Shown: one piece after another, positions 2,366 through 36,785 of the stretch
How the letters are laid out: every line of letters begins with the position of its first letter
Position numbering within the stretch: the stretch's first letter is position 1
Translations under genes and position numbers: made by a program
The notes under the pieces: model-generated
The model's database searches: none
The model's input: only the letters and a program-made list of their open reading frames with translations
What the model was told of the DNA's origin: nothing
From: Owenia fusiformis
Taxonomy: Eukaryota > Annelida > Polychaeta > Sabellida > Oweniidae
Length of the DNA: 64,000 bases
Assembly (NCBI GenBank): GCA_903813345.2
Contig: CAIIXF020000004.1
Location: 18,833,513-18,897,512 of the forward strand
Direction: 5' to 3'

Positions 2366-4037
2366 ACAAGAACACAAATGTGTACAAAATGTCCCCACCA
2401 ATGGGTGATCCCATGAAATGGTTATCCTGAAAATGAGTAGACAAGACTTTACCAACACAATTTGAGGACGGAAAATCCAAAATGGCCACCTTAAAATTTA
2501 CCCAGAATGCCAAAAATTTAGTCAGTTCTAGATTTTCAAACTAAGAACCACCCCTGAAAATTTTTAATTGATCCGTCACACAGTTAACTAGAAAACATGT
2601 AAACAAGACTTTACAGACAAGATTTTAGGATGGAAAATCCAAAATGGCTGCCTTGACATTTACCCAGAATGTCAAAAAACTAATCTGTTCCTAGATTTTC
2701 ATACTAAGAATCATCCCTGAAAATATGAAATTGATCTACCAAATGGTTCACCTGAAAACGCGTAGACAAGACTTTACAGACAAGATTTTTGGACAGAAAA
2801 TCCAAAATGGCTGCCATGACATTTACACAGAATGCCAAAAAACTAATCAGATGTAGATTTTCACACTAAGAATCATCCCTGAAAATTTGAAATTGATCTA
2901 CCAAACGGTTCACCTAAAAACGCGTAGACAAGACTTTACAGGCAAGATTTTAAGACGGAAAATCCAAAATGGCTGCCTTGACATTTATCCAGAATGCCAA
3001 AAAACTAATCAGATCTAGATTTTCATACTAAGAATCATCCCTAAAAATTTGAAATTGATCTACAGAACGGTTCACCTGGAAATGCATAGACAAGACTTTA
3101 CAGACAAGATTTTAGGACAGAAAATCCAAAATGGCTGCCTTGACATTTGCCCAGAATGCCAAAAAACTAATCAGTTCTACATTTTCATACTAAGAATCAT
3201 CTCTGAAAATTTGAAATTGATCTACCAAACGGTTCACCTGAAAACGCGAAGACAAGACTTTACAGACAAGATTTTAGGACGGAAAATCCAAAATGGCTGC
3301 CTTGACATTTACCCAGAATGCCAAAAAACAAATCAGATCTAGATTTTTATACTAAGAATCATCCCTGAAAATTTGAAATTGATCCACCAAACGGTTCACC
3401 TGAAAACACGTAGACAAGACTTCACAGACAAGATTTTAGGACGGAAAAATCCAAAATGGCCGACAATAAAAAAGTGATTATGTGTTTTTGCTGATTTCTT
3501 CTTACAAAATTATCACATATAACTACTGTTAACAATAACATAGGCTTTTACAACAAAGTACATCTGAAATTATTTATAAAGCTACTAAATAGTTAAAGTA
3601 TGAAAACTCAAAAACACCATTCAATATGATACAAAGTATTATCGTGCGCTAACTTTTCTTAAGACATTCAAAATGGCTGACATGACTGAGCTAACAGGTC
3701 CAAAACCTAATCAGATCTAGAATGAAGTGAGCTGAACAAGATGTTAAAGTTTTAAAAGCAACTGTGAAGCCGTTTTTCTTAAAGTTTGCAGACAAGGATT
3801 TTAGCATTTGACTTCAAAATGGCCGACAGGAAGTAGGTATCGAGTTAAAATTTTTTCATCCACATCTGTATGCCCTCATAAGTTATCCCTGAAAATTTGA
3901 AGGTGATATCTGTAGCGGTTTTGGAGAAAACTCCCGGATGTACGGACAGACGGACAGACGGACGGACGGACGTACGGACGGACAGACGGACGCGCCTAGG
4001 CCGACAATATGGCCCCACACTATGTGGTGGGGACATA
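2366..4037. mobile_element. TGTCCCC-family element, copy 1 (7 internal repeats)
   Basis: The element starts ACAAGAACACAAATGTGTAC, which is followed by AAAATGTCCCCACC, and ends TGTGGTGGGGACATAA. TGTCCCCACC and GGTGGGGACA form short terminal inverted repeats. The interior holds seven copies of a 162-bp repeat (2436-3412 by the GTAGACAAGACTTT mark), then a unique part, then a (GGACGGAC)n-like tract at 3940-3990. It contains no coding region. Open frames over the tract give Arg/Pro/Ser/Val strings and are not genes. This is likely a non-autonomous DNA element of unknown superfamily. Confidence 0.8.
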
Positions 4038-10000: not shown

Positions 10001-10085
10001 AATTTAATGCCGTGGATACAAATTAAATATATTTTTCAAATGAAAATTTGGCTGATTTGCATAAATTGTTAATTGCAAAACTTAC
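4038..10085. other. Intronic sequence, apart from the hairpin at 5479-5543
   Basis: Six kilobases of AT-rich sequence. The region at 6530-6620 has a few irregular GAGGGAACAGCATCTG-type repeats. A phase 1-to-0 exon must lie somewhere between 1423 and here if the 1135-1422 exon belongs to the gene, but I could not find one with good splice sites. Confidence 0.5.
5479..5543. repeat. Near-perfect hairpin, 32-bp arms
   Basis: CCTTATTCTGGGACAAAATG with TGTAACATACAA is followed at once by its inverse (TTTGTATGTTACAC, ATTTTGTCCAAGAATAAGG). The arm motif GTGTCCTTATTCTGGGACAA occurs again as a direct repeat at about 5566-5585, so the hairpin arose within a small local duplication. Confidence 0.75.
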
Positions 10086-10157
10086 GAATACATAGAGTGT
10101 CTTGACTGGTTGAGCAAACTTGTGCTTGGTAAGTCATTCCAGTGCACTTTGAACATG
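10086..10157 (-). CDS. Exon j: TNF-receptor-type cysteine-rich repeat, second part
   Basis: This exon is 72 nt, phase 1 to 1, with a ccaattag acceptor and a TATTC|gtaagt donor. It encodes (A)CSKCTGMTYQAQVCS followed by TSQDTLCI. It continues the repeat of exon i: joined, they read DRVCTACSKC, the usual C-x2-C junction of TNFR repeats, and QDTLC mirrors DRVC. The acceptor has a weak pyrimidine tract, so the 5' boundary is slightly less sure than the others. Confidence 0.72.
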
Positions 10158-11769
10158 CTAATTGGTATAGAGAATCATGGCAAATTAGTGAGCGCTTCAA
10201 AATGACACACTTGAACATTTCATATAACTGAACCATCTTGAACTGTTTGACTTGAAACAGCTCATATGTCAAATGACAAGAATGGAAGTTATACATACAA
10301 GTATAAGTAATTGAAGTGCCTTTCATTTTAATTAAGTATGTAAAATGTGTTTTTCAGGTGTTCAGTTCAGTTTGGTTCCCTGATTGTTTATGCATCAGTA
10401 TATTCTGAAATGATCAAGTAAATATGTCAAAATATTAATTCAATACAATCACACTAACTTTGAAGGTCTTTTAACAACTCAGTTGACAAAAATGGTATGC
10501 ATCTCCAAATATGGTAAATGTCTTCCCATATTTGGCCTGCATGACCATATTTGGAAATCTAACAATACAGACTATATCAAAATGCAATAATTGGTAAGTA
10601 GAACCAGTAAAACATTATCTTAACCTAGCTCTTAATACACAATTACAAAACGCAGTCTTAAAATAATGTTTTATCAGGTCAAAACTGCCTTTTATATTAA
10701 TTATCATTAATTAATTAACAACTTATTTCAGTGATTGCCATACAAAATAACTAGATAATTATAATTCAAAAATGATGCAATCATCATGCATGCTAGCAAA
10801 ACTTCTTAAAGAAATGAAACATACTTGTTCATTCATTTATTTGAATCAAAAATGTTAATTTCTTCAAAAAGATGTGAACAGATCATAAAAAAACATTGAC
10901 CTAATAACTAATTATACTAAAACTAGAATGTATATTAATTATAATCTAAAAAACAAACACTAAATAACACAAATGTTAAACAAAATGCATTAAAACTAAT
11001 AAGCAGTAAAGAGAATTGTTGAGCAACAAGGATTGAAGGAGACGGTGATAATATGAATACTCGCACCAGATATACAAATGATCAATGTATACGTTGATCA
11101 AAAATACTGTTCTTTCATTAATTGATGATTACCAATATGATATATCTTATTTGTATTGAGCCATGTTAAAATATTATTCAGAAAATGGAAAGATGATAAT
11201 TGTCTCTGAAATGACCAGTATTAGGGAGAGAAGTCAAATAAGAGGCCCAACCAACAGCTCCACTAGCAAATCATATACCAGGGAAGCAAACATTTCCACC
11301 ACTTCTTGGTTGTGACAGACTAATTTTTCATAATTCATCAAAATTAAATTTTAAACAAAGAATTAATCATGTATGACTCTTTATGACTCTGTGTATTATG
11401 GATCTATTAAGTGACAGTGAAAACCATTTTCATATTTCCAATGGTATATCACAACCTGGGGTCAAATTGCCTTCATCTTACATCTCTTTAAAGAGGTATT
11501 AGGAAGTAATAGCAGTCAAAGAAATGCAAGCAAACAGATCACATTGGCATCAGTGACAACAGAGATAGGCCTAGAAAGAATAACATGTTATGTTCAAATA
11601 TGGTTTAAGATGACTACTTTAGCATTGAATAATTTAAACAGCTTATATCAATAAGGTAAGTATTTGTAAATAATATGACATTACGGCTATCTCTATTGCC
11701 ACCATGACGCAAGCTTCTCTATTTAAGAATTCATATAATTGTAATCTAGTAGAGCAATGTTAGCCTTAC
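10158..11769. other. Intron between exons i and j
   Basis: AT-rich, no repeat family or extra exon recognised. A short inverted pair, CATATTTGG/CCAAATATG, occurs around 10507-10555. Confidence 0.55.
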
Positions 11770-12450: not shown

Positions 12451-14453
12451 ACAAGAACACAAATGTGTACAAAATGTCCCCACCTATGGGTGATCCCATC
12501 AAATGGTTATCCTAAAAATGAGTAGACAAGACTTTAACGACACAATTTGAGGATGGAAAATCCAATATGGCCACCTTAAAATTTACCCAGAATGCCCAAA
12601 AATTAGTCAGTTCTAGATTTTCATACTAAGAAGCACCCCTGAAAATTTGAAATTGATCCGTCACACAGTTAACCAGAAAACATGTAAACAAAAAGACTTT
12701 ACAGACAAGATTTGAGGACCGAAAATCCAAAATGGCTGCCTTGACATTTATCCAGAATGCCAAAAAACTAATCTGTTCTAGATTTTCATACTAAGAATCA
12801 TCCCTGAAAATTTGAAATTGATCTACCAAACGGTTCACCTGGAAATGCGTAGACAAAACTTTACAAACAAGATTTTAGGACAGAAAATCCAAAATGGCTG
12901 CCTTGACATTTACCCAGAATGCCCAAAAACTAATCAGATCTAGATTTTCATACTAAGAATCATCCCTGAAAATTTGAAATTGATCTACCTAACGGTTCAC
13001 CTAAAAACGCGTAGACAAGACTTTACGGGCAAGATTTTAAGACGGAAAATCCAAAATGGCTACCTTGACATTTATCCTGAATGCATAAAAACTAATGAGA
13101 TCTAGATTTTCATACTTAGAATCATCCCTGAAAATTTGAAATTGATCTACCAAACAGTTCACCTGAAAATGTGTAGACAATACTTTACAGACAAGATTTT
13201 AGGACAGAAAATCCAAAATGGCTGCCTTGACATTTACCCAGAATGTCCAAAAACTAATCAGATCTAGATTTTCATACTAAGAATCATCCCTGAAAACTTG
13301 AAATTGATCTACCAAACGGTTCACCTAAAAACGCGTAGACAAGACTTTACGGGCAAGATTTTAAGACGGAAAATCCAAAATGGCTGCCTTGACATTTATC
13401 CAGAATGCATAAAAACTAATGAGATCTAGATTTTCATACTGAGAATCATCCCTGAAAATTTCAAATTGATCTACCAAACGGTTCACCTGGAAATGCGTAG
13501 ACAAGACTTTACAGACAAGATTTGAGGACGGAAAATCCAAAATGGCTGCCTTGACATTTACCCAGAATGCCCAAAAACTAATCAGATCTAGATTTTCATA
13601 CTGAGAATCATCCCTGAAAATTTGAAATTGATCTACCAAACGGTTCACCTGAAAATGCGTAGACAAGACTTTACTGACAAGATTTTAGGATGGAAAATCC
13701 AAAATGGCTGCCTTGACATTTACCCAGAATGCCCAAAAACTAATCAGATCTAGATTTTCATACTAAGAATCATCCCTGAAAATTTGAAATTGATCCACCA
13801 AATGGTTCACCTGAAAACGTGTAGACAAGACTTTACACACGAGATTTTAGGACCGAAAAATCCAAAATGGCCGACAATAAAAAAGTGATTATGAGTTTTT
13901 GCTAATTTCTTTCAACAAAATTATCACATATAACTACTGTTAACAATAACATAGGCTTTTACAACAAAGTACACCTGAAATTATTTATAAAGCTACTAAA
14001 TAGTTTAAGTATGAAAACTGAATAACACCATTCAATATGATACAAAGTATTATCGTGCGCTAACTTTTCTTAAAACATTCAAAATGGCTGACATGACTGA
14101 GCTTACAGGTCCAAAACCTAATCAGATCTAGAATGAAGTGAGCTGAACAAGATGTTAAAGTTTTAAAAGCAACTGTGAAGCAGTTTTTCTTAAAGTTTGC
14201 AGACAAGGATTTTAGCATTTGACTTCAAAATGGCCGACAGATAGTTGGTATCGAGTTAATTTTTTTTCATCCACATCTGTATGCACTCATAAGTTATCCC
14301 TGAAAATTTGAAGGTGATATCTGTAGCGGTTTTGGAGAAAACTCCCGGACGTACGGACAGACGGACAGACAGACGGACAGACAGACGGACAGACAGACGG
14401 ACGGACGCGCCTAGGCCGACAATATGGCCCCACACTATGTGGTGGGGACATAA
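12451..14453. mobile_element. TGTCCCC-family element, copy 2 (9 internal repeats)
   Basis: It has the same ends and order as the copy at 2366-4037 and is in the same orientation. It carries nine 162-bp repeats, followed by the same unique part and a GGACAGACAGAC-rich tract at 14350-14405. It lies in the intron between exons h and i. Confidence 0.8.
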
Positions 14454-15261: not shown

Positions 15262-16661
15262 AATTACTCAAGGGGCGAGGAGGAAAATTCTCAATAAATG
15301 GTGTATAGTTGGTTTGGCAGCATTTTCAGTTAGGGGAGAGTCTTGGATGAAACTTCCACCTAGGTGATAACTTCACAGAGTGGTAGGAAGTTCTTTTTTT
15401 TGAGGAGTTAGCCCCCCACCCCCCAAAAACACCCCACCCGGGGAAAAAAATTGTTCACAGTAAATAACCTTAGATATTTTGATGTTTGTAAGTGACATAC
15501 ATAGATATTATATATATGAATCATTTGCAGTATAATTGATGCTGATTGCTCCTAAGGAAATTGAATATTAGTACAAAGTGTGTACCCCAGGGGGCAAATT
15601 CGTGACTCATTTTCTTACTATTTTGATCCTAACTTTTCAATTAGACACTGTAAGAGGTTGAAAAAATTCATGGGAAGTGCCCAATAGCAGGGTTAGTAAA
15701 CCTGCAAGATGCAAAGCCATGGAAGAGGTAGGAGCTGAGAAAAAAATTGTTGATTTTTCGAAAAATTTGACATTTTTGACAGTTGGATTTTGTGTATGAC
15801 TATAGCTGACCCCTATAGTTTCTAGATCCATCCCTCTATAATGATATTTATGGTTTTATAGTGTGGAACTAAGATGTAAAACATAATTTAGATGGGTTTT
15901 AAGGAAGTTAAAGGTTTTAAACAAGTCCAAAATTTGAAAAATTGTAAATATAAGGTTTCAAATTTACATATTCCAGGTATAGCCATGGCTGACCCCTATA
16001 GTTTCTAGATCCATCCCTCTATGATGATATTTATGGTTTTGCCATGTGAAACTAATATGTAAAACACAATTTAGATGGGTTTTAAGAAAGTTTAAGGTTT
16101 TAAACAAGTCCAAAATTTGAAAAATTGTGAATATAAGGTTTTAAATTTACGAATTTCAGGTATAGCCACGGCTGACCCTTATGGTTTTTTCATCCATACC
16201 TCTATGATTAAATATACAGTTTTAGAGTGTGGGACTAAGATTTAACATATCTAAAATGAATTTTAAGGAAGTTTAAGGTTTTAAACAAGTCCAAAATTTG
16301 AAGAATTGTAAATGTTAGGTTTCAAATTTATTAATTTCAGGTATAGCCAAAGATGACCCTTATGGATTTTACATCTATACCTCAGGGATGAAATATATAA
16401 TCTTAAGAGTATTTAACTAAACTGTAAAAGATACCTAAGATGAGTTCAAGGTTTTAAACAAGTGCAAAATTTGAAAAATTGACCTCAAAATTGGTCTTAA
16501 ATTCACGTTATTCAGGTACAGCCTTGAAAGAGCCCTGATAATTGAAGGTTATGAGTATAATAGTATCAACTATGATATCGTAGCTTAGAGACCAGGTGTA
16601 GAATATATACCTGTTGCAGAAGTTAGTCTGCTGCATATAGATGGAATGAAAAGTCGTGAAC

Positions 16662-19045: not shown

Positions 19046-20899
19046 GATATTTCTCAATTTTTCAAACATTGCACTTGTTAAAATTCTCAAACTTCCTTAA
19101 AATTCATCTTCGGTATGTTTTACTTCTTAGTTTCACACTCTGAAAATATATGTTTCATCATAGAGGTATGGATGATTTTGGACTTGTTTAAAATCTTTAA
19201 CTTCCTTAAAACCCATCTGAATTATGTTCTACATCTTTAGTTCCATACTACAAAACCATAAATATCACCAAAGAGGGATGGATTTAGAAACTATAGGGGT
19301 CAGCCATGGCTATATCTGGAATTTGTAAATTTGAAACCTTATATTTACAATTTTTCAAATTTTGGACTTGTTTAAAACATTTAACTTCCTTAAAACCCAT
19401 CTAAACTATGTTTTACATCTTAGTTCCACACTATAAAACCATAAATGTCATCATAGAGGGATGGATCTAGAACCTATAGGGGTCAGCCATGGTTATACCT
19501 GGAATTCGTAAATTTGAAACCTTATATTTACAATTTTTCAAATTTTGGACTTGTTTAAAACCTTTAACTTCCTTAAAACCCATCTAAATTATGTTTTACA
19601 TCTTAGTTCCACACTATAAAACCATAAATATCATCATAGAGGGATGGATCTAGAAACTATAGGGGTCAGCCATGGCTATACCTGGAATTCGTAAATTTTA
19701 AACCTTATATTTACAATTTTTCAAATTTTGGACTTGTTTAAAACCTTTAACTTCCTTAAAACCCATCTAAATTATGTTTTACATCTTAGTTCCACACTAT
19801 AAAAACATAAATATCATCATAGAGGGATGGATCTAGAAACTATAGGGGTCAGTCATGGCTATACCTGGAATTCGTAAATTTGAAACCTTATATTTACAAT
19901 TTTTCAAATTTTGGACTTGTTCAAAACCTTTAACTTCCTTAAAACCCATCTAAATTATGTTTTACATCTTAGTTTCACACTATAAAACCATAAATATCAT
20001 TATAGAGGGATGGATCTAGAAATTATAAGGGTCAGCTATAGTCATACACAATATCCAGCTGTCAAAAATGTCAAATTTTTCGAAAAATCAACAATTTTTT
20101 TCTCAGCTCCTACCTCTTCCATGGCTTTGCATCTTTCAGGGTTACTAACCCTGCTATTGGGCACTTCACATGAATTTTTCCAACCTCTTACAGTGTCTAA
20201 TTGAAAAGTTAGAATCAAAATAGTAAGAAAATGAGTCACGAATTTGCCCCCTGGGGTACATACTTTGTACTAATTTTCAAATTCTTTAGGAGTTATCAGC
20301 ATCAATTATACTGCAAGTGATTCATATATATAATATCTATGTATGTCACTTACAAACATCAAAATATCTAAGGTTATTTAGTGTAAACAATTTTTTCCCC
20401 AGGGTGGGGTGTTTTTGGGGGATGGGGGGCTAACTCCTGAAAAAAAAGAACTTCCTACCACTCTGTGAAGCTATCACCTAGGTGGAAGTTTCATCCAAGA
20501 CTCTCCCCTAACTGAAAATGCTGCCAAACCAACTATACACCATTTATTGAGAATTTTCCTCCCCGCCCCTAGAGTAAATTGTTTATTTTCCTTATGCTTT
20601 ATAAATTGTATGAGTGCAACAAAAGAGTCATTATTTCGAAATACATCATGATCCTTCTTTTTATATTTATGACAAGCAATATAGGAGATCAGAATATTAA
20701 GTTAGACAAGGGGCATAATCTAATCTTTAGAATCAAAATAGAAATAAAGTGAATCTGCACAATTCAATTTAACTTACTGATTGATTCATTGCACAGTGAA
20801 GTAATTTCATACTTTTTGTTATTTCCTATTATTCTTTAATCATCTGAAACCAAACCCAAACTGGATATTATAATCTCCCATACCCAGATCATTCAAGGA

Positions 20900-22836: not shown

Positions 22837-24817
22837 TATCACACTGTGGCTAGTCGATCTATGTGGATGCAGTCATTTATATGCAATGTATCGTGGGTGC
22901 TCGCATACATTATAGGGAATGGGATCATTGCAAAAATATGACAGCAAATCGAGGTAGTGATCTCAGAGTTTCTACTTAACATTGTGACTTGAAATCTTGC
23001 ATACATATTCAATATGCATAGTATGACAATATGTGAAAGTTTCAGCTACCATATTCCTGTTATAGGGAAAATATTTGAAAAACATTTCGTAAACGTCAAC
23101 ATATATGTATAAAATGGATGCCACTATGTATCATTTGGATTCAGAATGGTAACAAATGGATACTATAATAAATTATACTTTTATCATGATGATTTATTTA
23201 CTGATGGACAACTGGCCAGATTTTCTTTGTATCCATTGTTTGGATAAACATTCCTCATTCAGTAAAGTAATTAGCCACACCATTACAAAACACCCTCAGG
23301 AAAAATTGAAAATACTATATATAAACCCATCAACTGGAAAATCCCATTACAGATGAAAAAACTATGGTTTTATCCCTAATACTGTTAATTTGAAAAACGG
23401 GTCCATAACATGTCATGTAATGATGACAATGAAAATGTTGGAATAAGGTACGCCAATGAAGTGAATTCAGAGCCAAAGACCCATCAAGCCACTGGAATAC
23501 TCACAAATCAAGTTTCATAGCCTTGCCCGAGTCGGTCTCTTTTACTTATCTTGATTTCTATTATGACTGCCTTGTACCCCAGAGAAAGCCACGTGCTTTA
23601 CCGACCCAATGTTATTGTCGGTAAAATTTGACCAATCAACGACGGCCCTACATTGCCGGACTAGGTCTTCGTGCATTTCCATCGTGAATTCAGTTTTGAT
23701 TTTGAATCAACATTGAATTACATGATTTCATTTATACGAGTATTATGACTGCTTACATTCCAATGTACATTTAATAACATAATATATTGTAACTCTCAAG
23801 AAACACTCGATCAGATCAGATAACGTTTTGATTGGTCAATCAGCCTGAAGTCACACGTCGTGTCCATGCGATCTTGTCAATCAATAAGGTTTCGCGATAC
23901 CCTTAGGTAGCGTAGGTATTATGTGAATCTCGGAACCACTGAATAACTTAGCATAATATCAGTGATGATGCATTGGATTGTACAAGGTGGCAATAATTCA
24001 AGATCAGATAAGTAAATAAATACTGACTTGGGCAAGGCTACAAGTTTCAGAGCCATTAACATTCCTTAAAAGTGACAATGAGCAGCCAACATATAGACCA
24101 TCCGTAAATCTTGATAATTTTGTCAGCTCAGCTGAACGAGCCTACACATTCCTTGAAACAAATGACTCAAATTCAAGAATAACATTATCTATTTACAATT
24201 TTTTTGAAATCGTGGTAAGTGGAATCTTTCCAATTACCAATATAGCATTATTATTGTTTTTGGACACTGTGGATTAAAATATTAAAAATACACACATTCA
24301 AAATGATTCAATTAAAACCTAGTCAGTCTGTTCATTGAATCCATTCAGAACATCTACTAATCCACATGATACATCATAATTAAATTGCTTTTTTAAAGCG
24401 GATATTTCATACCATAACCCAAAAAATATTATAAAATGCATTGTATTTGTATTTTACTTCACACAGACATATTTGTGTACGTGAAATAATTATATTACTT
24501 GAATTTTTTATTCCCCATTATAAGGTAAACCAATGGCAAATTATACATACCTTCCCACAGCTATGAGCGAGATGATAAAACTGGTCGAGTGAACTCGTTT
24601 GAGTTATCTATTCTTCGTAAAAATATCAGAGAATGTGTGTTGATAGTGTAGCTTTGGTTTTGTAAATCAATGAAGTATGATATACACGGATGAGTAAATA
24701 TAGATTATTTAAACAGAAGTGCAAAATTCTTCCATTGAAAAGTACAGAGGCGAGCACCCACGATACATTGCATATAAATGACTGCATCCACATAGGTCGA
24801 CTAGCCACAGTGTATCA
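22837..24817. mobile_element. 2-kb element, 62-bp TIRs starting CACTGTG, 5-bp TSD
   Basis: The sequence at 22842-22903 (CACTGTGGCTAGTCGATCTA onward to GTGGGTGCTCGC) is repeated in inverse at 24751-24812 with two mismatches. The pentamer TATCA lies immediately outside both ends (22837-22841 and 24813-24817). A 5-bp target duplication and a CACTGTG start are features of Transib/RAG-type elements. Transposase was not seen, so this would be non-autonomous. Superfamily is inferred from ends only. Confidence 0.65.
23505..24058. mobile_element. Palindromic element nested in the CACTGTG element
   Basis: CAAGTTTCATAGCCTTGCCC near 23510 is matched in inverse by GGGCAAGGCTACAAGTTTCA near 24030, and the arms continue inward past ACTTATCTTGAT. 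The interior is comparatively GC-rich (for example GCCCTACATTGCCGGACTAG). No coding region. Confidence 0.6.
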
Positions 24818-24995: not shown

Positions 24996-25118
24996 GCTGA
25001 CAGGTAGCTCCTACACTGTAGAATCCTGGCTCACATACACACATATAGGAGCCTATAGTGTTCTTACATGTTGCTAGTGGATCACACATAAACAGGCCCT
25101 CCCCACACTCATCCTTAT
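24996..25118 (-). CDS. Exon h: calcium-binding EGF domain (the intact copy)
   Basis: This exon is 123 nt, phase 1 to 1, with a ttgcag|ATAAGG acceptor and a TGTCAGC|gtgagt donor. With the split codon it encodes DKDECGEGLFMCDPLATC followed by KNTIGSYMCVCEPGFYSV and GATCQ. This has all six EGF cysteines, the D-x-D-E-C calcium-binding start, and the C-x-N-x4-Y-x-C pattern associated with Asp/Asn beta-hydroxylation. It is the last and only complete member of a 24-copy tandem series. The other 23 copies lack the donor and the final cysteine and carry Phe in place of the fifth Cys. Confidence 0.87.
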
Positions 25119-28100
25119 CTGCAATAAATGAAAACATGTCATATATGCAATGTAGAATCCTGGCTCAAATACACACATATATGAGCCTATAGTGTTCTTA
25201 CATGTTGCTAGTGGATCACACATAAACAGGCCCTACCCACACTCATCCTTATCTGCAATAAAGGGCAACATGTCATATATACAATGTAGAATCCTGGCTC
25301 AAATACACACATATATGAGCCTATAGTGTTCTTGCATGTTGCTAGTGGATCACACATAAACAGGCCCTCCCCACACTCATCCTTATCTGCAATGAATGGA
25401 AACATGTCATCTATGCAATGTAGAATCCTGGCTCAAATACACACATATATGAGCCTATAGTGTTCTTGCATGTTGCTAGTGGATCACACATAAACAGGCC
25501 CTCCCCACACTCATCCTTATCTGCAATAAAGGGCAACATGTCATATATGCAATGTAGAATCCTGGCTCAAATACACACATATATGAGCCTATAGTGTTCT
25601 TACATGTTGCTAGTGGATCACACATAAACAGGCCCTCCCCACACTCATCCTTATCTGCAATAAATGAAAACATGTCATATATGCAATGTAGAATCCTGGC
25701 TCAAATACAATCATATATGAGCCTATAGTGTTCTTACATGTTGCTAGTGGATCACACATAAACAGGCCCTCCCCACACTCATCCTTATCTGCAATAAAGG
25801 GCAACATGTCATATATGCAATGTAGAATCCTGGCTCAAATACACACATATATGAGCCTATGGTGTTCTTGCATGTTGCTAGTGGATCACACATAAACAGG
25901 CCCTCCCCACACTCATCCTTATCTGCAATAAAGGGCAACATGTCATATATGCAATGTGGAATCCTGGCTCAAATACACACATATATGAGCCTATGGTGTT
26001 CTTACATGTTGCTAGTGGATCACACATAAACAGGCCCTACCCACACTCATCCTTATCTGCAATAAAGGGCAACATGTCATATATACAATGTAGAATCCTG
26101 GCTCAAATACACACATATATGAGCCTATAGTGTTCTTACATGTTGCTAGTGGATCACACATAAACAGGCCCTCCTCACACTCATCCTTATCTGCAATAAA
26201 TGAAAACATGTCATATATGCAACATAGAATCCTGGCTCAAATACACACATATATGAGCCTATGGTGTTCTTGCATGTTGCTAGTGGATCACACATAAACA
26301 AGCCCTCCCCACACTCATCCTTATCTGCAATAAAGGGCAACATGTCATATATGCAATGTAGAATCCTGGCTCAAATACACACATATATGAGCCTATAGTG
26401 TTCTTACATGTTGCTAGTGGATCACACATAAACAGGCCCTCCCCACACTCATCCTTATCTGCAATAAAGGGCAACATGTCATATATGCAATGTGGAATCC
26501 TGGCTCAAATACACACATATATGAGCCTATGGTGTTCTTACATGTTGCTAGTGGATCACACATAAACAGGCCCTCCCCACACTCATCCTTATCTGCAATA
26601 AATGAAAACATGTCATATATACAATGTAGAATCCTGGCTCAAATACACACATATATGAGCCTATAGTGTTCTTACATGTTGCTAGTGGATCACACATAAA
26701 CAGGCTCTCCCCACACTCATCCATATCTGCAATAAAGGGCAACATGTCATATATGCAATGTAGAATCCTGGCTCAAATACACACATATATGAGCCTATGG
26801 TGTTCTTACATGTTGCTAGTGGATCACACATAAACAGGCCCTCCCCACACTCATCCTTATCTGCAATAAATGAAAACATGTCATATATGCAATGTAGAAT
26901 CCTAGCTCAAATACACACATATATGAGCCTATAGTGTTCTTACATGTTGCTAGTGGATCACACATAAACAGGCCCTCCCCACACTCATCCTTATCTGCAA
27001 TAAAGGGCAACATGTCATATATGCAATGTAGAATCCTGGCTCAAATACACACATATATGAGCCTATAGTGTTCTTACATGTTGCTAGTGGATCACACATA
27101 AATAGGCCCTCCCCACACTCATCCTTATCTGCAATAAAGGGCAACATGTCATATATGCAATGTAGAATCCTGGCTCAAATACACACATATATGAGCCTAT
27201 AGTGTTCTTACATGTTGCTAGTGGATCACACATAAACAGGCCCTCCCCACACTCATCTTTATCTGCAATAAAGGGCAACATGTCATATATGCAATGTAGA
27301 ATCCTGGCTCAAATACACACATATATGAGCCTATGGTGTTCTTACATGTTGCTAAAGGATCACACATAAACAGGCCCTCCCCACACTCATCCTTATCTGC
27401 AATAAAGGGCAACATGTCATATATGCAATGTGGAATCCTGGCTCAAATACACACATATATGAGCCTATGGTGTTCTTACATGTTGCTAGTGGATCACAAA
27501 TAAACAGGCCCTCCTCACACTCATCCTTATCTGCAATAAATGAAAACATGTCATATATACAATGTAGAATCCTGGCTCAAATACACACATATATGAGCCT
27601 ATAGTGTTCTTACATGTTGCTAGTGGATCACACATAAACAGGCCCTCCCCACACTCATCCTTATCTGCAATAAATGAAAACATGTCATATATACAATGTA
27701 GAATCCTGGCTCAAATACACACATATATGAGCCTATAGTGTTCTTACATGTTGCTAGTGGATCACACATAAACAGGCCCTCCCCACACTCATCCTTATCT
27801 GCAATAAATGAAAACATGTCATATATACAATGTAGAATCCTGGCTCAAATACACACATATATGAGCCTATAGTGTTCTTACATGTTGCTAGTGGATCACA
27901 CATAAACAGGCCCTCCCCACACTCATCCTTATCTGCAATGAATGGAAACATGTCATATATGCAACATAGAATCCTGGCTCAAATACACACATATATGAGC
28001 CTATGGTGTTCTTACATGTTGCTAGTGGATCACACATAAACAGGCCCTCCCCACACTCATCCTTATCTGCAATAAAGGGCAACATGTCATATATGCAACA

Positions 28101-28240
28101 TAGAATCCTGGCTCAAATACACACATATATGAGCCTATAGTGTTCTAACATGTTGCTAGTGGATCACACATAAACAGGCCCTCCCAACACTCATCCTTAT
28201 CTGCAATGAATGGAAACATGTCATATATGCAATGTTTATG
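25119..28240 (-). repeat. Array of 23 truncated EGF-exon copies (134-bp unit)
   Basis: Twenty-three head-to-tail 134-bp units, with acceptor positions at 25118 plus multiples of 134 up to 28200. Each unit carries a ttgcag acceptor and the EGF exon up to EPGFY, then passes into intron sequence. The exon end coding SVGATCQ and its gtgagt donor are missing. Every array copy has TTTGAG where the intact exon has TGTGAG, so the fifth cysteine is Phe. The units with acceptors at 25252 and 26056 also carry an in-frame TAG (GGG TAG GGC). The unit length is not a multiple of 3, so reading from one unit into the next shifts frame and reaches a stop. The copies differ from one another by only a few substitutions each, which suggests recent expansion or homogenisation. 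Confidence 0.93.
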
Positions 28241-28714
28241 ATACTGTTGCTGTGCATCTTATTTCAGTGGTTAATAACACACCTTTTTCAAACTTAGGGG
28301 CGAATGACCACAGTCAATAGCATATACATGTACATGTATCTGGTTAAAATGTGAAAAATTTTTTTGATGAAGATAAACATTTCAACATGGAACTAGATAA
28401 AGGCCATATCGACCATATACATATGCCATAGCACTAAACAAAAATGAAAAATGTTCACAATTCATCAATTTTATGCAGTATAGAAACAGAAAATACTCGA
28501 TAACTTAAAAAGAGCTCAAAGAGGATAATACGTACTGATATAATATAAACTGTATCACAAGTATGCATTCTGTTAGATGGTCAACAACTTGAACATCATT
28601 AGATGGTGCTGCCATCTTCTAATTCATTCCAACAGTTAAAACTTTACATAATTTGTAGGTCAATTTGCATGCAATGTTATGAGCTTTACAATGTAAAGTT
28701 ATAAGTGTCCTTAC
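28241..28714. other. Intron g-h, part outside the EGF array
   Basis: About 470 bp between exon g and the first array copy; nothing recognised. With the array, the intron is about 3.6 kb. Confidence 0.55.
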
Positions 28715-28867
28715 CCATACAAAGGTCCCCTACTTGGTCAAAGCCCCTATCACATATACAGCTTCTGACCATCGGGTCACATCCTGCTAGATTCTGTGAG
28801 GCAGCCCTTGGGCACAATATGTCCTCAAAACATGGTTCATTGGCAATCATTTGAGCACTGGGGACAT
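28715..28867 (-). CDS. Exon g: EGF-like domain
   Basis: This symmetric exon is 153 nt, phase 1 to 1, with an atttgcag acceptor and a GTATGG|gtaagg donor. It encodes a full six-cysteine EGF-like module: C-FEDIL-C, ten residues to the third Cys, DPMVRS to the fourth, C-I-C, then DRGFDQVGDL before the last Cys. The GF after the fifth Cys is typical of EGF. The phase 1-1 arrangement is classical for EGF exons and agrees with exons f and h. Binding partners are unknown; this region would be extracellular. Confidence 0.82.
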
Positions 28868-29047
28868 CTGCAAATATATTATTGTTTAGCTCCTCCATAG
28901 TGGCTATCAATTCCCCCTCCTGCTTCACTTTAAGTATAATATAAGTATAAATATCTCGTAATACTTGAAGCAAATGTTAGTTAGACTGTAGCATATTATA
29001 TTACTAAGCATTTCTCTCAGTTAAATATTTGAAGATTATTAACTTAC

Positions 29048-29140
29048 CAAATATGTGCACATTAGTTGTATCTTTCTGAGACCAGGCATTCACATCAAGT
29101 GAGCCCCCTCTCTCATGATGGAAGAACACCTTGAAGCTAT
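29048..29140 (-). CDS. Exon f: extracellular segment with four tandem acceptors
   Basis: This exon is 93 nt, phase 1 to 1, with a ccttccag acceptor and a TATTTG|gtaagt donor. With the split Asp codon from exon e it encodes DSFKVFFHHERGGSLDVN and then AWSQKDTTNVHIF. No domain is recognised. The acceptor and the first 36 or so coding bases are repeated at 29227, 29314 and 29401, each 87 nt further upstream in the transcript, so this call uses the acceptor closest to the donor. Choosing an upstream acceptor would keep the frame and lengthen the exon by 29 codons per copy. Confidence 0.72.
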
Positions 29141-29430
29141 CTGGAAGGAATAAACAATGTGATTGTTGTAGTGAACACACTTTATAGTGTGCCCCTCTCT
29201 CATGATGGAAGAACACCTTGAAGCTATCTGGAAGGAATAAACAATGTGATTGTTGCAGTGAACACACTTTATAGTGTGCCCCTCTCTCATGATGGAAGAA
29301 CACCTTGAAGCTATCTGGAAGGAATAAACAATGTGATTGTTGCAGTGAACACACTTTATAGTGTGCCCCTCTCTCATGATGGAAGAACACCTTGAAGCTA
29401 TCTGGAAGGAATAAACAATGTGATTGCTGC
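29048..29430 (-). repeat. Four-copy 87-bp repeat across an exon acceptor
   Basis: Four nearly identical units place a ccttccag acceptor plus the first 36 or so coding bases of exon f at 29140, 29227, 29314 and 29401. The period is 87 bp, a multiple of 3, and the frame used by exon f stays open through all units. The spacer between copies contains TTGCAGTGAACAC, also the core of the adjoining 33-bp minisatellite. The repeat unit therefore joins minisatellite-derived intron to exon. Confidence 0.9.
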
Positions 29431-29454
29431 GGTGAACACACTTTTAATAGTGAG

Positions 29455-30362
29455 CACTAAGTTGCAGTGTGAACATTTAATAGTGAACACTGCATTATTA
29501 TGAACACCTTCAATAACAAATGCTAAGTTGCAGTGAACACCTTCTATAGTGAATAGTAATTTGCAGTGAACATCTCCATTCAATAGTGGACACTAAGTTG
29601 CAATGAACACCTTCAATAGTGAATAGTGACTGCAGTGAACACCTCAAATAGTGAATACTACTTGGCAATGAACACCTCCAATAGTGAATACTAAGTTGCA
29701 GTGAACACCTCAAATAGTGAATACTGAGTTGCAGTGAACACCTTCAATAGTGAATACTAAGTTGCAGTGAACAACTCCAACAGTGAATACTAAGTTGCAG
29801 TGAACACCTCCAATAGTGAATACTGAGTTGCAGTGAACACCTCAAATAGTGAATACTGAGTTGCAGTGAATACCTCCAATAGTGAATACTAAGTTGCAGT
29901 CACCTCCAATAGTGAATACTAAGTTGCAATGAACACCTCCAATAGTGAATACTAAGTTGCAATGAACACCTCCTATAGTGAATATTAAGTTGCAGCGAAT
30001 ACCTCCAATAGTGAATACTAAGTTGCAATGAACACCTCTAATAGTGAATACTAAGTTGCAGTGAACACCTCCTATAGAGAATACTAAGATGCAGTGAATA
30101 CCTCCAATAGTGAATACTAAGTTGCAGTGAACACCTCCAATAGTGAATACTAAGTTGCAATGAACACCTCCAATAGTGAATACTAAGTTGCAATGAACAC
30201 CTCCAATAGTGAATACTAAGTTGCAATGAACACCTCCAATGGTGAATACTAAGTTGCAGTGAACACCTCCTATAATGAATACTAAGTTGCAGTGAATACC
30301 TCCAATAGTGAATACTAAGTTGCAATGAACACCTCCAATAGTGAATACTAATTTTCAGTGAA
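29455..30362. repeat. 33-bp minisatellite
   Basis: About 27 imperfect copies of a 33-bp unit built on AGTGAACACCTCCAATAG followed by TGAATACTAAGTTGC. The left end is more degenerate, with shorter and longer units. The array lies in the intron between exons e and f and abuts the 87-bp acceptor repeat. Because 33 is divisible by 3 it gives artefactual open frames; I see no reason to regard it as coding. Confidence 0.92.
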
Positions 30363-30642
30363 CACCTACAGCATTTATTCTACATACTTTCTCCACACAA
30401 CATTTTTGTATTTCAAGACAAAATCATTGCAACTGTTTTCATTCAAGCAACTTTTAGTATTGATCATTCTAGCTCCAAGGGAAATTCTATTCAATCTAAG
30501 AATAAATCAAATCTATTATTTCAACATTTCTACATCTTGCCATTTATTTGTAAAACTGAATTTCTTACTGAGAAATGCTTATGGTTATTATCTTAAATAT
30601 AAAACAATATTCAGATTCTGTTAGATTATTATCTGTTTGTAC

Positions 30643-31070
30643 TACATACCTAGGGAAGCATTTGTATGGGATCAATGGAAAAGCAGGCAGGCTATACTTA
30701 GAGGTTATGTCACTATGACGTGAAATATGCCTGAGTTCTCCCAATATAGGCCGACCTTGGGAGGCTCTATATTTGGGCAAGAACGAAGGCATATTTCACG
30801 TCATAGTGACATAACTGATGTATTACATGCCTTTGTTCCCATGGTAACTTTGTATCAATGACGTGACGTCATGATATTATCATGGTTATTAAAGAAATCT
30901 AATATCAAAACGAGGTAAGCGGGCTATATCGAGGTAATCGGGCAATATCGGTGGATATAGCTCGCTAACTTTCCCATTGACTTCCATACAAATGCTTCGC
31001 TAGGTATGTAATACAGGCCGATATAGCCCGCTTCCTCTGATTACTATGACAACATTATGATGTCATGTTT
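30643..31070. mobile_element. Foldback MITE next to exon e
   Basis: TACATACCTAGGGAAGCATT at 30643 is matched in inverse by AATGCTTCGCTAGGTATGTA ending at 31010. Inside, a stronger palindrome has arms TTATGTCACTATGACGTGAA and its inverse (about 30700-30812). GCGGGCTATATCG near 30920 and its inverse near 31025 suggest that the element extends to about 31070. It ends about 55 bases from the donor of exon e. Confidence 0.65.
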
Positions 31071-31124
31071 CCTTTCTACTAAACTATATGGACACAGCGA
31101 TATGTTATGTATTGTCAATCTTAC

Positions 31125-31398
31125 CTATATGCATATCAAGTGGAATCTCTATGCTTATATCAACTTGGGGTCCTTCACAACTAGCATACACCATAGCAAT
31201 CACCGTGACAACAGTCAATAGCATAAGGTTTGATGTCTTAGTTAAACCTCTTGGACTTCCAGGCCCTGTCTGGTGAGGCCCAGTATGATGAGGCCTTGTG
31301 TGGATTTGTCCAATATTGTTAGGCCTGGATGGATTAGGTCCTGTGTGATTGAGATTTTCAAAACCATTGCTGTTCATGTCACCATGGTTTCCATTTAC
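31125..31398 (-). CDS. Exon e: Pro/His-rich linker and second hydrophobic segment
   Basis: This exon is 274 nt, phase 0 to 1, with a gttttgcag acceptor and an ATAG|gtaaga donor. It encodes 91 residues. The first 57 are a low-complexity Asn/Pro/His/Gly linker with HTGP-type repeats ending in PRGLTKTSN. Then comes a hydrophobic segment LMLLTVVTVIAMVYASC, followed by EGPQVDISIEIPLDMHI. Basic residues before the segment predict that the N side is cytosolic and the C side is outside, the orientation expected for a second span after exon b. The same hydrophobic stretch also resembles a signal peptide starting at its Met, so it could instead mark the start of a separate downstream gene or of an alternative transcript. 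The exon is solid; its role is uncertain. Confidence 0.75.
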
Positions 31399-33812
31399 CT
31401 GCAAAACAATTTAGGAATAATTTACAAACTTAGTCCAATATGTAAGCTTTTTTGGAGCATCATAGGATTTCTACATATTTATCATAAAACTATTAAGGTG
31501 TTGCACATACAGTTAATGATGTGTTTGGATCTTCCAGGTTCAATTTTAGTTAATAGGGCTTTGATTTGATTTTTCAAGTGTTACCCTTTTTCATCATTGT
31601 TTGCATTATAACCATCTCCATCATATTGTGATGAAAAATTCTGCTCAAAAGACCCATCTCATCAACTTCTAATTCAAATGTATTTATAACAAGTGGAAGA
31701 TAGTGCTATAAAGTATGTGACCCTCCATGAAACCTAATTGCAAGTATATGTAATTGAAAGTTGCCAGTAATCTCTATTAAACACTGTAAACCTATTAGTG
31801 TGCTAGCAATTTCTTTGTCAGATAATATTGGTGGCAAATGTGATTAAAATAGACAGTTATTGATAGAGAATTCAATAAGCCTCTGGACAATTCATCTCCT
31901 TTATTCCCATATAGTTATTCTGGGAGAGATCTCTCTCACACAGTGCTCTGACTCACTCAGTCTTTATATAAGCTATCGTGTCTATACTATGGTTTTATTT
32001 TTATACCTACAATCATAAAAACATGAGTTTTATCTTTGTGTATGCTGACTTTATTTCACTTTCATTATGAGTTTATTTTGAGTTGGTTTTGATTCTATTC
32101 TACAAATGGCAAATAATGGTCATAATAATGCAGCTTATAAGACCTGCTAAATTCTATATGGCCTTTGGGAGGCATTATTTATCTCCAAATTTATTGTTAC
32201 TGCTTTACAGAATAGAATTTCTCATTACAATTAGGTGTATCATTAGATATATCATGGCATGAGTGAAACATAAGCTTGGCCCAAAGGAATAGAGTTGGTC
32301 TGTTTTAAATCTATTTATCAACTGATATAATAATTGTTGTAACATTATCGGCACAAGAGGACATATCAGTGCATATATAAAACAAGACACACAGTGACTC
32401 TCTTTTTCATTAAGAAAATCAAAATAGTTAATTTACCCAAAAGAACTTGGCACTAGTCTGCTCTTGCATCTGTAAAAAATTGAAGTTGGACGGATTTTCT
32501 TGAAATTTTGATATGACAAGATTTGAGTTCACCCACCTAGACAGATGCAGACATTCACACTATCAATGGAAGACAAGGACAATATAGCAATTAGAAAATG
32601 TGTAAACAACCAATTGAGATTATATAAATGTACAAACAACAACACTTGGTTGGATGCCAACCAGTATTGTAATAATAATGAGAGAATATCTCTACTTTTT
32701 ATATTAACAAAAATGTCATTTAAAATTTTGAGGGCAAACTATTTCTAGATGTTAAAATTTTGAAGGTTACGCCAATCCTTCTCATAATGCATATAAGTCA
32801 TCTGATTTCCCAGACACACTGTGACAAATTACATGTTTTGATTTCTGAACAAACCAAAATACAAATGACCACATTCATGAATATTAAAATCAAAGTTTGA
32901 GAATTTTTCGATTATGACCAACTGCAATCACTGATTTAATGAATGAATAAGACCATATGTGAAAATGAAAACTATATCTTGTCAATATTTTTGTGAAAAC
33001 AAACCAAAAAACATAAAGTCATCACTGAAATCCCCTGTGCCATATGTGTCTCCTCCAAAGAATGTGACTTGCATTCTAAATACATGTAAACCGATAAAAT
33101 TCCTCTTAAAAGGAACACAAAAAGTTAATAACAACTCTAGAAGAATAATTGGAAAAGTTAAAGAGGTTTAGTAAAACGATTTATTGAGATAACATACATC
33201 CATTTCAAAAGGATACAGTAATTTGGAGATGTAATAAAAGGTTTCTACTAGCATTTCAACATGATAAAGTGTGAATTGTTTCCGAATATTATCTGCTGTT
33301 AAATTGCATCTTTGCAATTTTATCCACATAAACCAATCTAATACTTTCATAAAATTCATATATTTATCTATCTTTCAAGAGCAACTTCATTTACTTTTCT
33401 CTCCAATCATTATTCACTTAATACCTTCTTTCCTGATCAAAAAACAAGACCAATGTGATATCCTTTAGCCAATATCCCTGAGGTGGCATTTCAAGTTATT
33501 TACAGGGCAGAATGCTCACATATCATTTCTTGTAATTTCTGTATTTCGTTATTTTTACATTAACAGTTCATATGGGTCGATATTTTGGAACAAGGGTGTA
33601 TTTGAGTAGGGGTAGCTATGGGCGTAATTCATCAAAATTTCTATATGGAGAGTACGATTTGGGAGTTATTACAACTCTTTGAAGTGGTGAAAATTTCACT
33701 AAGGATTTGGGAGATATTATAATTTTATGATATCTTTTATTGAAATTTCATTTTATTTTAGTTGGAAAATATAATTCTTCTTTTAAAATGTGAAGTTATC
33801 ATTCACACATAC
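31399..33812. other. Intron d-e, left part
   Basis: AT-rich. No exon with good splice sites and no repeat family recognised. Confidence 0.5.
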
Positions 33813-34109
33813 TTAACCTCTTGAATCCCAGGCCCTTAAATTGGTTGAAACCAGATAATTTTTCATTTTTGCGAGTTTTTGACATTTTACTCGTAACTTA
33901 CATATACAACAGGTGATCATCGTTTTAGTAAAATTAGACAGCAGAGATCTACACATCTTAAAACAATTTTTGTGTAAATTGGGTGAAAATTGTTCAAATA
34001 AGAACAATTTTAGTGAAACACTTGTGACAGATTTTCTAGTCAGTCAAGGTTTCAAGGTCATTTCTGAAGTGACAAGAAATCTCGTCACTCCAGGTAGTCA
34101 AGGGGTTAA
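33813..34109. mobile_element. TTAA-flanked piggyBac-like MITE
   Basis: The element is bounded by TTAA on both sides (33813-33816 and 34106-34109). The ends are CCTCTTGAATCCCAGG and, in inverse, CCCCTTGACTACCTGG. A TTAA target with CC-C-TTG ends is typical of piggyBac-type elements. It is 297 bp with no transposase. The small open frames inside are not credible genes. Confidence 0.65.
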
Positions 34110-35254
34110 TGAAAACATGGCCAGGCAAGCATTGATATATGACAATGAGTAGAAGAGCCACTGCTCATAGATACATTTTATGAGGATGTAAATTAGACAT
34201 TCGTACACATTTTTTCAACATCGTGAAATACCTTAAGAGCCATCTCTTGAGACTGACCAGGAACACAGAACCAATTTGACACTTAGAGGTGTTAGAAAAT
34301 GGACTTTAAGACCCATGGGTTCAAATTATGGAAATGTAGCTGTCATATATGATTCCCTGTGTGCAATATAATGTCTTACTTTTAAACAAACAGCAAAATA
34401 GCTTTTTATATTCTATCTGAACTTGATTTCTGGAACATTGCATAATAAATCCATAGATGCACTTTCAAAGCTTTGACTTCACTAATCAAATGAAATGGTG
34501 ACGACTTCTGAACATAAATTTTTGAGTTCCAAAATAGTTTTCCATCATTTGATGATATGTTTCACTGTTCACATGTATATTTAGAATTATGGGTTCCAAA
34601 TGTTAAACAGCAGTAACTTCAACATATTCAAGATATATAATAAAAAAGTAAGAAACACGTGACCTATGTTTTTACTCTTTTAAATAGTAGGTCACTGTTA
34701 AAGAAAATCATTAACCCTTAACTAGTAATCGATGTAGATTCATGTATTTTTTATGCAAAACTGAAAGATGAAGACCATGCAAGGACATGAGTTATGTGTC
34801 CCTGAAAATAGGACGAGACTCCAATAAGTAAATCCCACTGAAATATCAGAACATACATACCTACCTTAAATATGGATGAGGATACAATTAAATCAATGTT
34901 AGTAACAACAATGCTAAAAGCAATTCAGACCAATGCAATTGTCACTAACACAATCTTAATGCATTTAAATGTATGTTGCCACTAAAATAGTTGCTGGCCT
35001 TCATCTTCCAACCAAACTAGCAAACCTTTAGAAGGCATTAGCTCTACTCTTCACCCCCTCATCCCTTCCAATCTTCCATATTCAAATAAATTAAGGGATA
35101 TAATTAACACGCATAAAAATGTTGTGCAAATGAAAATTTTAAAATGATAACAACTAGATATCAACAACATAAATAATCTCTATTCTCCCTGAGATTACAG
35201 TGAAAGATTCCCAACAACATTAAATTAGAAAAAATCATGCAGCCCAACTGGCCC
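34110..35254. other. Intron d-e, between MITE and donor array
   Basis: AT-rich; nothing recognised. Confidence 0.5.
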
Positions 35255-36735
35255 ATCTTTCCAAATGCTGGCATATACTGAGAATGTCCTCCTCCCTCAG
35301 ACTTACTTCTGCTATTATTTTATGTAGACCATCTTTTCAAATGCTGGCATATACTGAGAATGTCCTCCTCCCTCAGACTTACTTCTGCTATTTCTTTATG
35401 TAGACCATCTTTTCAAATGCTGGCATATACTGAGAATGTCCTCCTCCCTCAGACTTACTTCTGCTATTTCTTTATGTAGACCATCTTTCCAAATGCTGGC
35501 ATATACTGAGAATGTCCTCCTCCCTCAGACTTACTTCTGCTATTTCTTTATGTAGACCATCTTTTCAAATGCTGGCATATACTGAGAATGTCCTCCTCCC
35601 TCAGACTTACTTCTGCTATTTCTTTATGTAGACCATCTTTTCAAATGCTGGCATATACTGAGAATGTCCTCCTCCCTCAGACTTACTTCTGCTATTTCTT
35701 TATGTAGACCATCTTTCCAAATGCTGGCATATACTGAGAATGTCCTCCTCCCTCAGACTTACTTCTGCTATTTCTTTATGTAGACCATCTTTTCAAATGC
35801 TGGTATATACTGAGAATGCCCCTTTCTCACTCAGACTTACCTCAGCTATTTCTTTATGAAGACCATCTTTCCAAAAACTGATATATACTGAAAATACCCC
35901 TCCTCCCTCAGACTTAGCTCAGCTATTGTTGCTTTATGGAAACCATCTTTCCAAATGCTGGCATATACTGAGAATGCCCCTTTCTCACTCAGACTTACCT
36001 CAGCTATTTCTTTATGAAGACCATCTTTCCAAAAACTGATATAAACTGAAAATACCCCTCCTCCCTCAGACTTAGCTCAGCTATTGTTGCTTTATGGAAA
36101 CCATCTTTCCAAATGCTGGCATATACTGAGAATGCCCCTTTCTCACTCAGACTTACCTCAGCTATTTCTTTATGAAGACCATCTTTCCAAAAACTGATAT
36201 ATACTGAAAATACCCCTCCTCCCTCAGACTTAGCTCAGCTATTGTTGCTTTATGGAAACCATCTTTCAAAATGCTGGCATATACTGAGAATGCCCCTTTC
36301 TCACTCAGACTTACCTCAGCTATTTCTTTATGAAGACCATCTTTCCAAAAACTGATATATACTGAAAATACCCCTCCTCCCACAGACTTAGCTCAGCTAT
36401 TGCTTTATGGAAACCATCTTTCCAAATGCTGGCATATACTGAGAATACCCCTCCTCCCTCAGACTTACCTCGGCTATTTCTTTATGAAGACCATCTTTCC
36501 AAAAGCTGACACACACTGAGAATGCCCCTTTCTCACTCAGACTTACCTCAGCTATTTCTTTATGAAGACCATCTTTCCAAATGCTGGCATATACTGAGAA
36601 TGCCCCTTTCTCACTCAGACTTACCTCAGCTATTTCTTTATGAAGACCATCTTTCCAAATGCTGGGATATAATGAGAATGCCCCTCCTCCCACAAACTTA
36701 CCTCAGCTATTTCTTTATGGAGACCATCAACCTGA
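35255..36735 (-). repeat. About 19 tandem copies of an exon donor (76-78-bp unit)
   Basis: Each unit repeats the end of exon d (GATGGTCTTCATAAAG, AAATAGCTGAG), the gtaagt donor and the start of the intron. Units near the exon are 77-78 bp; the seven farthest are 76 bp and read GCAGAA|gtaagt. Between about 35840 and 36400 two variants alternate, giving a dimer of about 158 bp. Fifteen of the 19 copies keep GT at the donor; four (near 35910, 36070, 36230 and 36389) read ctaag instead. The first unit after the true exon is 77 bp, so use of the second donor would shift frame and reach a stop. Confidence 0.9.
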
Positions 36736-36785
36736 AAGTTTGGTCTGTCTCCATGGTGCACTGGTGTGCTGGTCACTGGTGCTGC
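36702..36785 (-). CDS. Exon d: cytosolic segment whose donor is tandemly amplified
   Basis: This exon is 84 nt, 28 codons, phase 0 to 0. It has a gttttag acceptor and a GCTGAG|gtaagt donor. The peptide starts AAPVTSTPVHHGD and ends VDGLHKEIAE. It is proline-rich at the start and may form a short helix at the end. The last 30 or so coding bases plus the donor and the first part of the intron recur about 18 more times downstream (see the repeat at 35255-36735), so the true exon end faces a row of competing donors. The exon itself is supported by splice sites and phase. The function is unknown. Confidence 0.68.

Follow-up and report, generated by a model that had tools for sequence, protein, structure and literature searches.

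Why should a single gene carry tandem copies of three of its own splice borders, and what becomes of the copies? The question is raised by a minus-strand gene of the annelid Owenia fusiformis, in which five exons are readable. It lies in a window of 64,000 nucleotides (nt), the whole stretch of DNA analysed here (assembly GCA_903813345.2, contig CAIIXF020000004.1, positions 18,833,513 to 18,897,512; positions below are counted from the first letter of the window). An earlier reading of the window, the sequence-only reading, had reported three arrays in this gene, each spanning a splice border, and all three are present: array A repeats an acceptor in a unit of 134 base pairs (bp) and holds 24 acceptors, array B repeats another acceptor at 87 bp and holds four, and array C repeats a donor at spacings of 76-81 bp and holds 19 donor positions. 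These arrays are likely to be mirages, that is, tandem duplications of minisatellite type that extend across an intron-exon border and whose extra copies would be removed with the intron, leaving mRNA and protein unchanged and the array in nearly neutral drift. They come with a bias toward exon borders that was not expected, and within its own genome the gene is not exceptional.

The arrays were located with Tandem Repeats Finder (Table 1). The unit of array A consists of about 32-35 nt of intron end and 99-102 nt of exon start, that of array B of about 51 nt of intron end and 36 nt of exon start, and that of array C of 27 nt of exon end and about 50 nt of intron start. Each unit holds intron sequence, a splice site and exon sequence, and in all three arrays the authentic copy is joined to the exon with the duplicates on the intron side, which is the arrangement of a mirage. 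The statement of the sequence-only reading that none of the arrays is purely intronic holds for A, B and C; the gene has a fourth array, of 33 bp, which is wholly intronic. Arrays of at least 100 bp make up 20.1% of the window vs 3.9% of 30 control loci. Genome searches with B and C returned only their own place (one candidate each), and the search with A returned only copies at its own locus among the matches listed (best 40 of 986). A dispersed repeat as the source of the units was considered and rejected, since B and C are single-place and in the stretch searched next to A only 24000-24814 is high-copy. This latter segment lies downstream of exon 5; it is a dispersed repeat, 813 bp or more in length, that reaches the end of that stretch, with at least 39 further copies at 93-97% identity (best 40 of 986 candidates).

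In array A one acceptor is used and 23 are extra, with AG kept in all 24. The last copy runs on into the rest of an exon for an epidermal growth factor (EGF) domain, and the other 23 re-enter intron after about 100 exon bases. Every one of the 23 extra copies reads TTT (F) at a codon that in the working copy is TGT and encodes one of the EGF-domain cysteines, and TCA at one that is TCC there. From these two common differences, the founding copy had probably already decayed and the working copy lay outside homogenisation, as in concerted evolution from which the boundary copy is excluded. In-frame stops stand in 3 of the 23 extra copies (two GAG to TAG, one AAG to TAG), and reading through from an upstream acceptor meets 4 stops at a distance of one copy, 8 at two copies and 62 at 23 copies. 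Seven of the extra acceptors are identical to the working one across 20 intron bases; strength alone is therefore no selector, and what settles the choice must be position beside the exon body and the donor of that exon, in line with exon definition. A donor-like ATGTAAGA is also found 51 nt into 19 of the 24 copies.

In array C the first donor is used and 18 are extra; GT is present at 15 of the 19 positions and CT at the other 4. Stops are met from all three downstream donors tested, and the higher-order unit of 158 bp fits concerted evolution. Array B has one used and three extra acceptors, spaced 87 bp apart. Over 36 nt the exon part of its extra copies does not differ from that of the working copy, so that B is uninformative on concerted evolution. 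In-frame open copies, as an alternative-splicing cassette would have, were found in B alone and were absent from the tested read-throughs of A and C.

A series of events could have produced such arrays. We infer that a segment of about 30-160 bp, composed of either intron end and exon start or exon end and intron start, would be duplicated head to tail, probably via replication slippage or template switching and in some cases at short microhomology. Slippage or unequal exchange inside the array would then expand it and homogenise its copies in part. The copy still joined to the exon body would keep the original junction, and the extra copies would fall on the intron side. With the exon recognised as a unit, the extra copies would leave with the intron, and mRNA and protein would be unchanged. 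Because the extra copies would become intron, tandem duplication across splice borders would be tolerated, and because mRNA and protein would not change, the array would be free to drift almost neutrally.

A precedent exists in amphioxus, where mirages have been described in Adh3, the globins BflGb6 and BflGb9, troponin C and PGBD5 as tandemly duplicated intron-exon borders at either end of an exon (PMC3087553, PMC3902484). BflGb6 has an acceptor mirage of 150-160 bp and BflGb9 a donor mirage of 157 bp; in BflGb6 concerted evolution acts inside the cluster and excludes the boundary copies, and reverse transcription PCR suggests that splicing is apparently undisturbed by the amphioxus mirages (PMC3087553, PMC3902484). 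The likeness lies in a border-spanning minisatellite at acceptors or donors, as in A, B and C, and this common structure, together with the amphioxus splicing data, makes those genes a precedent for reading the present arrays as mirages. The differences are that BflGb6 has 3 and 6 copies in two haplotypes vs 24 and 19 in arrays A and C, that here three arrays stand in one gene within a genome sample in which arrays are common and border-enriched, and that the present host is an annelid. Its genome has 12 chromosome-size contigs of 31.9-62.2 Mb, which account for about 478 of 498 Mb, and searches of it for COX1 and hemerythrin gave no match (one candidate each); amphioxus has about 18-20 chromosome pairs. 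In the searches made of open-licence papers, the term mirage for a border duplication was found for amphioxus only (PMC3087553, PMC3902484), and no genome-wide count was among the papers listed. The authors of the globin study propose mirages as a route to new introns (PMC3087553).

Other kinds of tandem duplication are related in part. Ordinary intronic minisatellites, of which the 33-bp array beside B is one, undergo the same repeat turnover, whereas coding sequence and a splice site form part of the unit here. In the Rogers model of intron gain, a new intron reportedly arises inside an exon from copies of AGGT. Such intron gain by tandem genomic duplication, as in the potato RdRp (PMC4974935), likewise begins with a tandem duplication that carries splice signals, but the duplications in the present gene lengthen an intron that is already there and leave the exon as it was. 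The globin study also refers to the Rogers idea (PMC3087553). The intronic minisatellites of C. elegans (PMC4039745) were set aside as a parallel, since those repeats lie inside introns.

Whether such arrays are peculiar to this gene was judged against a control sample of 106 loci with 152 exon matches in the O. fusiformis genome, obtained from family or protein searches and chosen from the match lists ahead of any repeat search of their DNA. The sample comprises 52 kinase loci (60 matches), 6 loci with EGF exons (two without upstream flank), 8 CCT chaperonin stretches (46 matches) from a list of about a dozen clusters, and 40 kinesin matches, for the most part with high scores, from a list of 144. 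Arrays were accepted at a period of at least 20 and a score of at least 80, and border status was assigned by eye; arrays that stop at a border (L017, L085) and one that is possibly a border array itself (L037) were counted as non-border. Expected values come from uniform placement of one repeat unit, with the ends of hidden Markov model matches taken as borders and some matches crossing introns. On this basis, 17 of 36 arrays straddle a border vs 4.82 expected, a 3.5-fold excess that none of 1,000,000 draws reached, and they stand at 16 of the 152 exon matches. The excess holds per locus (13/24 vs 4.65 expected, P = 5e-5) and when L093 and L096 are left out (12/27 vs 3.98, P = 7e-5). It appears in CCT (8/15 vs 1.61, P = 4e-5), kinesin (4/7 vs 1.59, P = 0.04) and kinase (5/13 vs 1.56, P = 0.01), and the six EGF loci contributed a single array, away from a border (0.06 expected). 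A further 30 kinase loci, top-scoring and mostly long single matches, held 13 arrays and no border array among them (0.81 expected); with these added, the count is 17/49 vs 5.63 expected (P = 2e-6).

In the control border arrays that were inspected, the exon-joined copy fits the exon and the rest is intronic, as in A, B and C. Border amplification is thus not special to the gene in the window and is common in the genome sample. The sequence-only reading had regarded three arrays in one gene as unusual, and this view does not survive the comparison: beyond the frequency of border arrays in the controls, a single CCT stretch, L096 (G000:C11:134600-142700), also has three of them (96 bp x 4, 53 bp x 20 and 28/118 bp) and two other arrays besides. 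L096 is a close parallel to the gene studied here.

The control loci offered some observations in their own right. L097 (G000:C2:23266359-23269174), at the end of a kinesin motor exon, has a large acceptor-side border array of 159 bp x 17.9; it was fetched for its visible repeat and therefore stands outside the border counts and inside the copy comparisons given below. Its extra-copy variants are mainly synonymous (6/8). In L017 (G000:C11:19329697-19330146, reverse), a 23-bp array of 35 copies starts at the donor of a kinase exon, and its units resemble the intron start gtaagtaatga. At G000:C4:25903751-25916127, pairs of EGF exons with near-equal scores recur about every 1.46 kb, apparently as a tandem array of whole exons.

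Several observations weigh against mirages that drift neutrally. Microhomology at the array edges, judged by eye, speaks in favour in A (ACA, in the copy consensus), in C (GATGG) and in B (GCTCACT, with one later change in the copies), but it is not general among arrays, with 2 bp at L089 and about none at the donor array of L035 and the acceptor array of L093. A read-through of array B is open for any copy number and adds 29 residues per copy. Nor would uniform neutral duplication by itself lead one to expect the enrichment at borders. Among the variants between extra copies of 13 arrays (26 synonymous, 39 non-synonymous, 3 stop; n = 68), the synonymous ones are more numerous than expected (16.2; P = 0.006), with A, C and L097 as the main sources. 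This mild excess is not predicted by pure neutrality and could come from exchange with the working exon, from mutation bias or from some use of the copies. In a second comparison, of 20 arrays, which overlooked copies with insertions or deletions (3 of 18 in C) and read L097 in a wrong frame, the variants relative to the working copy comprise 44 synonymous, 102 non-synonymous and 3 stop changes (n = 149; 37.2 synonymous expected, P = 0.12), and the splice dinucleotide is kept in 60 of 68 extra copies for AG and in 56 of 66 for GT. Coding constraint on extra copies is weak at most and is concentrated in A, C and L097. The divergence of exon and intron parts of the copies is not used here, since insertions and deletions inflate the intron figures.

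The excess at borders can be read in two ways: duplications may start there, or arrays at borders may last longer or remain recognisable for longer. The former would make exon borders of this lineage mutational hotspots, at which a process tied to the border, such as breakage coupled to transcription or splicing, or template switching close to the donor and the branch site, preferentially starts tandem duplications. This explanation is possible and on balance doubtful. It agrees with a surplus that holds per locus and without L093 and L096, with CCT, kinesin and kinase each lying above expectation, and with a kinase exon in L035 that is amplified at both borders. The absence of border arrays from the 30 top-scoring kinase loci and from the EGF loci does not fit it, the same excess could result if arrays with one copy under selection survived longer or were easier to detect, and the count comes from one genome with border status assigned by eye. 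The suggestion of the sequence-only reading that a local process favours exon borders is partly backed by the departure from uniform placement, although the 30 further kinase loci lack border arrays. Its other suggestion, selection for splice-site buffering or choice with the extra copies as back-up or alternative sites, is highly improbable. The kept AG and GT dinucleotides would favour it and are expected anyway of young, similar copies; the units do not preserve the frame (a length divisible by 3 in 6 of the 13 arrays examined, vs 4.3 expected by chance), the tested read-throughs of A and C run into stops, all extra copies of A have lost the EGF cysteine, and four donor positions of C are dead.

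Array B deserves separate consideration as a functional cassette of alternative acceptors that would yield proteins carrying from 0 to 3 inserts, each of 29 residues. Its unit is a multiple of three (87 = 3 x 29), stops are absent from all four read-throughs, and the last 20 intron bases are the same at all four acceptors. A stop-free, frame-keeping unit can nevertheless be due to chance in a very short array, and B looks like an outgrowth of the adjoining 33-bp minisatellite, with which it has the core TTCACTGCAAC in common; little credence is therefore given to a cassette. That the copies were made by misassembly is extremely unlikely. Assembly is known to have difficulty with arrays, and a draft genome apparently contains one misassembled amphioxus mirage (PMC3087553), but the present copies differ at many sites in patterns without exact recurrence, and other genes, on several chromosome-size contigs, have such arrays as well.

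The interest of the arrays lies in the border enrichment, as seen in one genome. Published mirages cover a handful of amphioxus genes, and border arrays at 16 of 152 control exon matches, 3.5 times as many as uniform placement gives, point to a bias at splice borders, either of mutation or of survival. This raises the questions of whether borders are hotspots of duplication and how the spliceosome picks among many near-identical neighbouring sites, and it implies that gene predictors may be misled in genomes rich in border arrays. A bolder extension, which we hold to be unlikely, is that in this animal lineage borders are preferred starts of duplication, that about one exon in 10 has a border array, amounting by extrapolation to thousands genome-wide, and that these provide a standing stock of copied splice sites and partial exons out of which introns, alternative acceptors and exons could newly arise. 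Were this so, the donor-like motif in array A would make frame-neutral mini-exons of 17 residues possible.

The gene itself is assembled from exons that probably belong to one expressed unit, as judged from frame, phase and splice consensus; the joins among exons 2-5 are of phase 1 throughout. The hydrophobic segment of exon 2, assessed by eye, suggests a type II membrane anchor. Exon 5, at array A, matches the EGF_CA domain (E 5.9e-9, 36.5 bits vs a curated cut-off of 27). Exons 1-3 match the genome at their own locus only; for the cysteine-rich and EGF exons, the matches listed outside the locus (best 150 of 607 candidates) are to distant EGF exons with 51% identity or less. A comparison with paralogues was dropped, there being among these matches no close paralogue in which the absence of the arrays could be checked. 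A scan for exons by splice sites at strict thresholds recovered, of the known exons, only the read-through of array B. The minus-strand open frame at 10072-10353 has a weak, sub-threshold match to a TNFR cysteine-rich domain (E 0.0054) and is possibly a further exon of the same gene.

Table 1. Exons and tandem arrays of the gene, in window positions.
Feature	Positions	Strand	Description
Exon 1 of the part studied	36702..36785	-	APVTSTPVHHGDRPNFQVDGLHKEIAE; ends at working donor 36701-36700
Exon 2	31125..31398	-	N-terminal part with many N, H, G and P residues; hydrophobic segment LMLLTVVTVIAMVYA
Exon 3	29048..29140	-	DSFKVFFHHERGGSLDVNAWSQKDTTNVHIF; working acceptor 29141/29140
Exon 4	28715..28867	-	Cysteine-rich; phase 1-1; EB module match below threshold
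Exon 5	24996..25118	-	Calcium-binding EGF domain; acceptor 25119/25118, donor 24995; phase 1-1
Array A, acceptor array	25017-28235	-	134 bp x 24.0; 96% matches
Array B, acceptor array	29105-29444	-	87 bp x 3.9; 98% matches
Array C, donor array	35253-36728	-	76 bp x 19.1; higher-order period 158 bp
Fourth array, wholly intronic minisatellite	29501-30367	-	33 bp x 26.3; upstream of array B

Elsewhere in the window, one tandem unit of 162 bp occurs in three places (2416-3460, 12500-13871 and 62161-62708), and a similar 162-bp array, the likeness being judged by eye, lies on the other strand in control locus L023. This unit is a dispersed satellite, which a transposon may carry. Two arrays of 183 bp, at 15805-16363 and 19175-20036, lie about 3 kb apart, and by eye their units are apparently reverse complements of each other.

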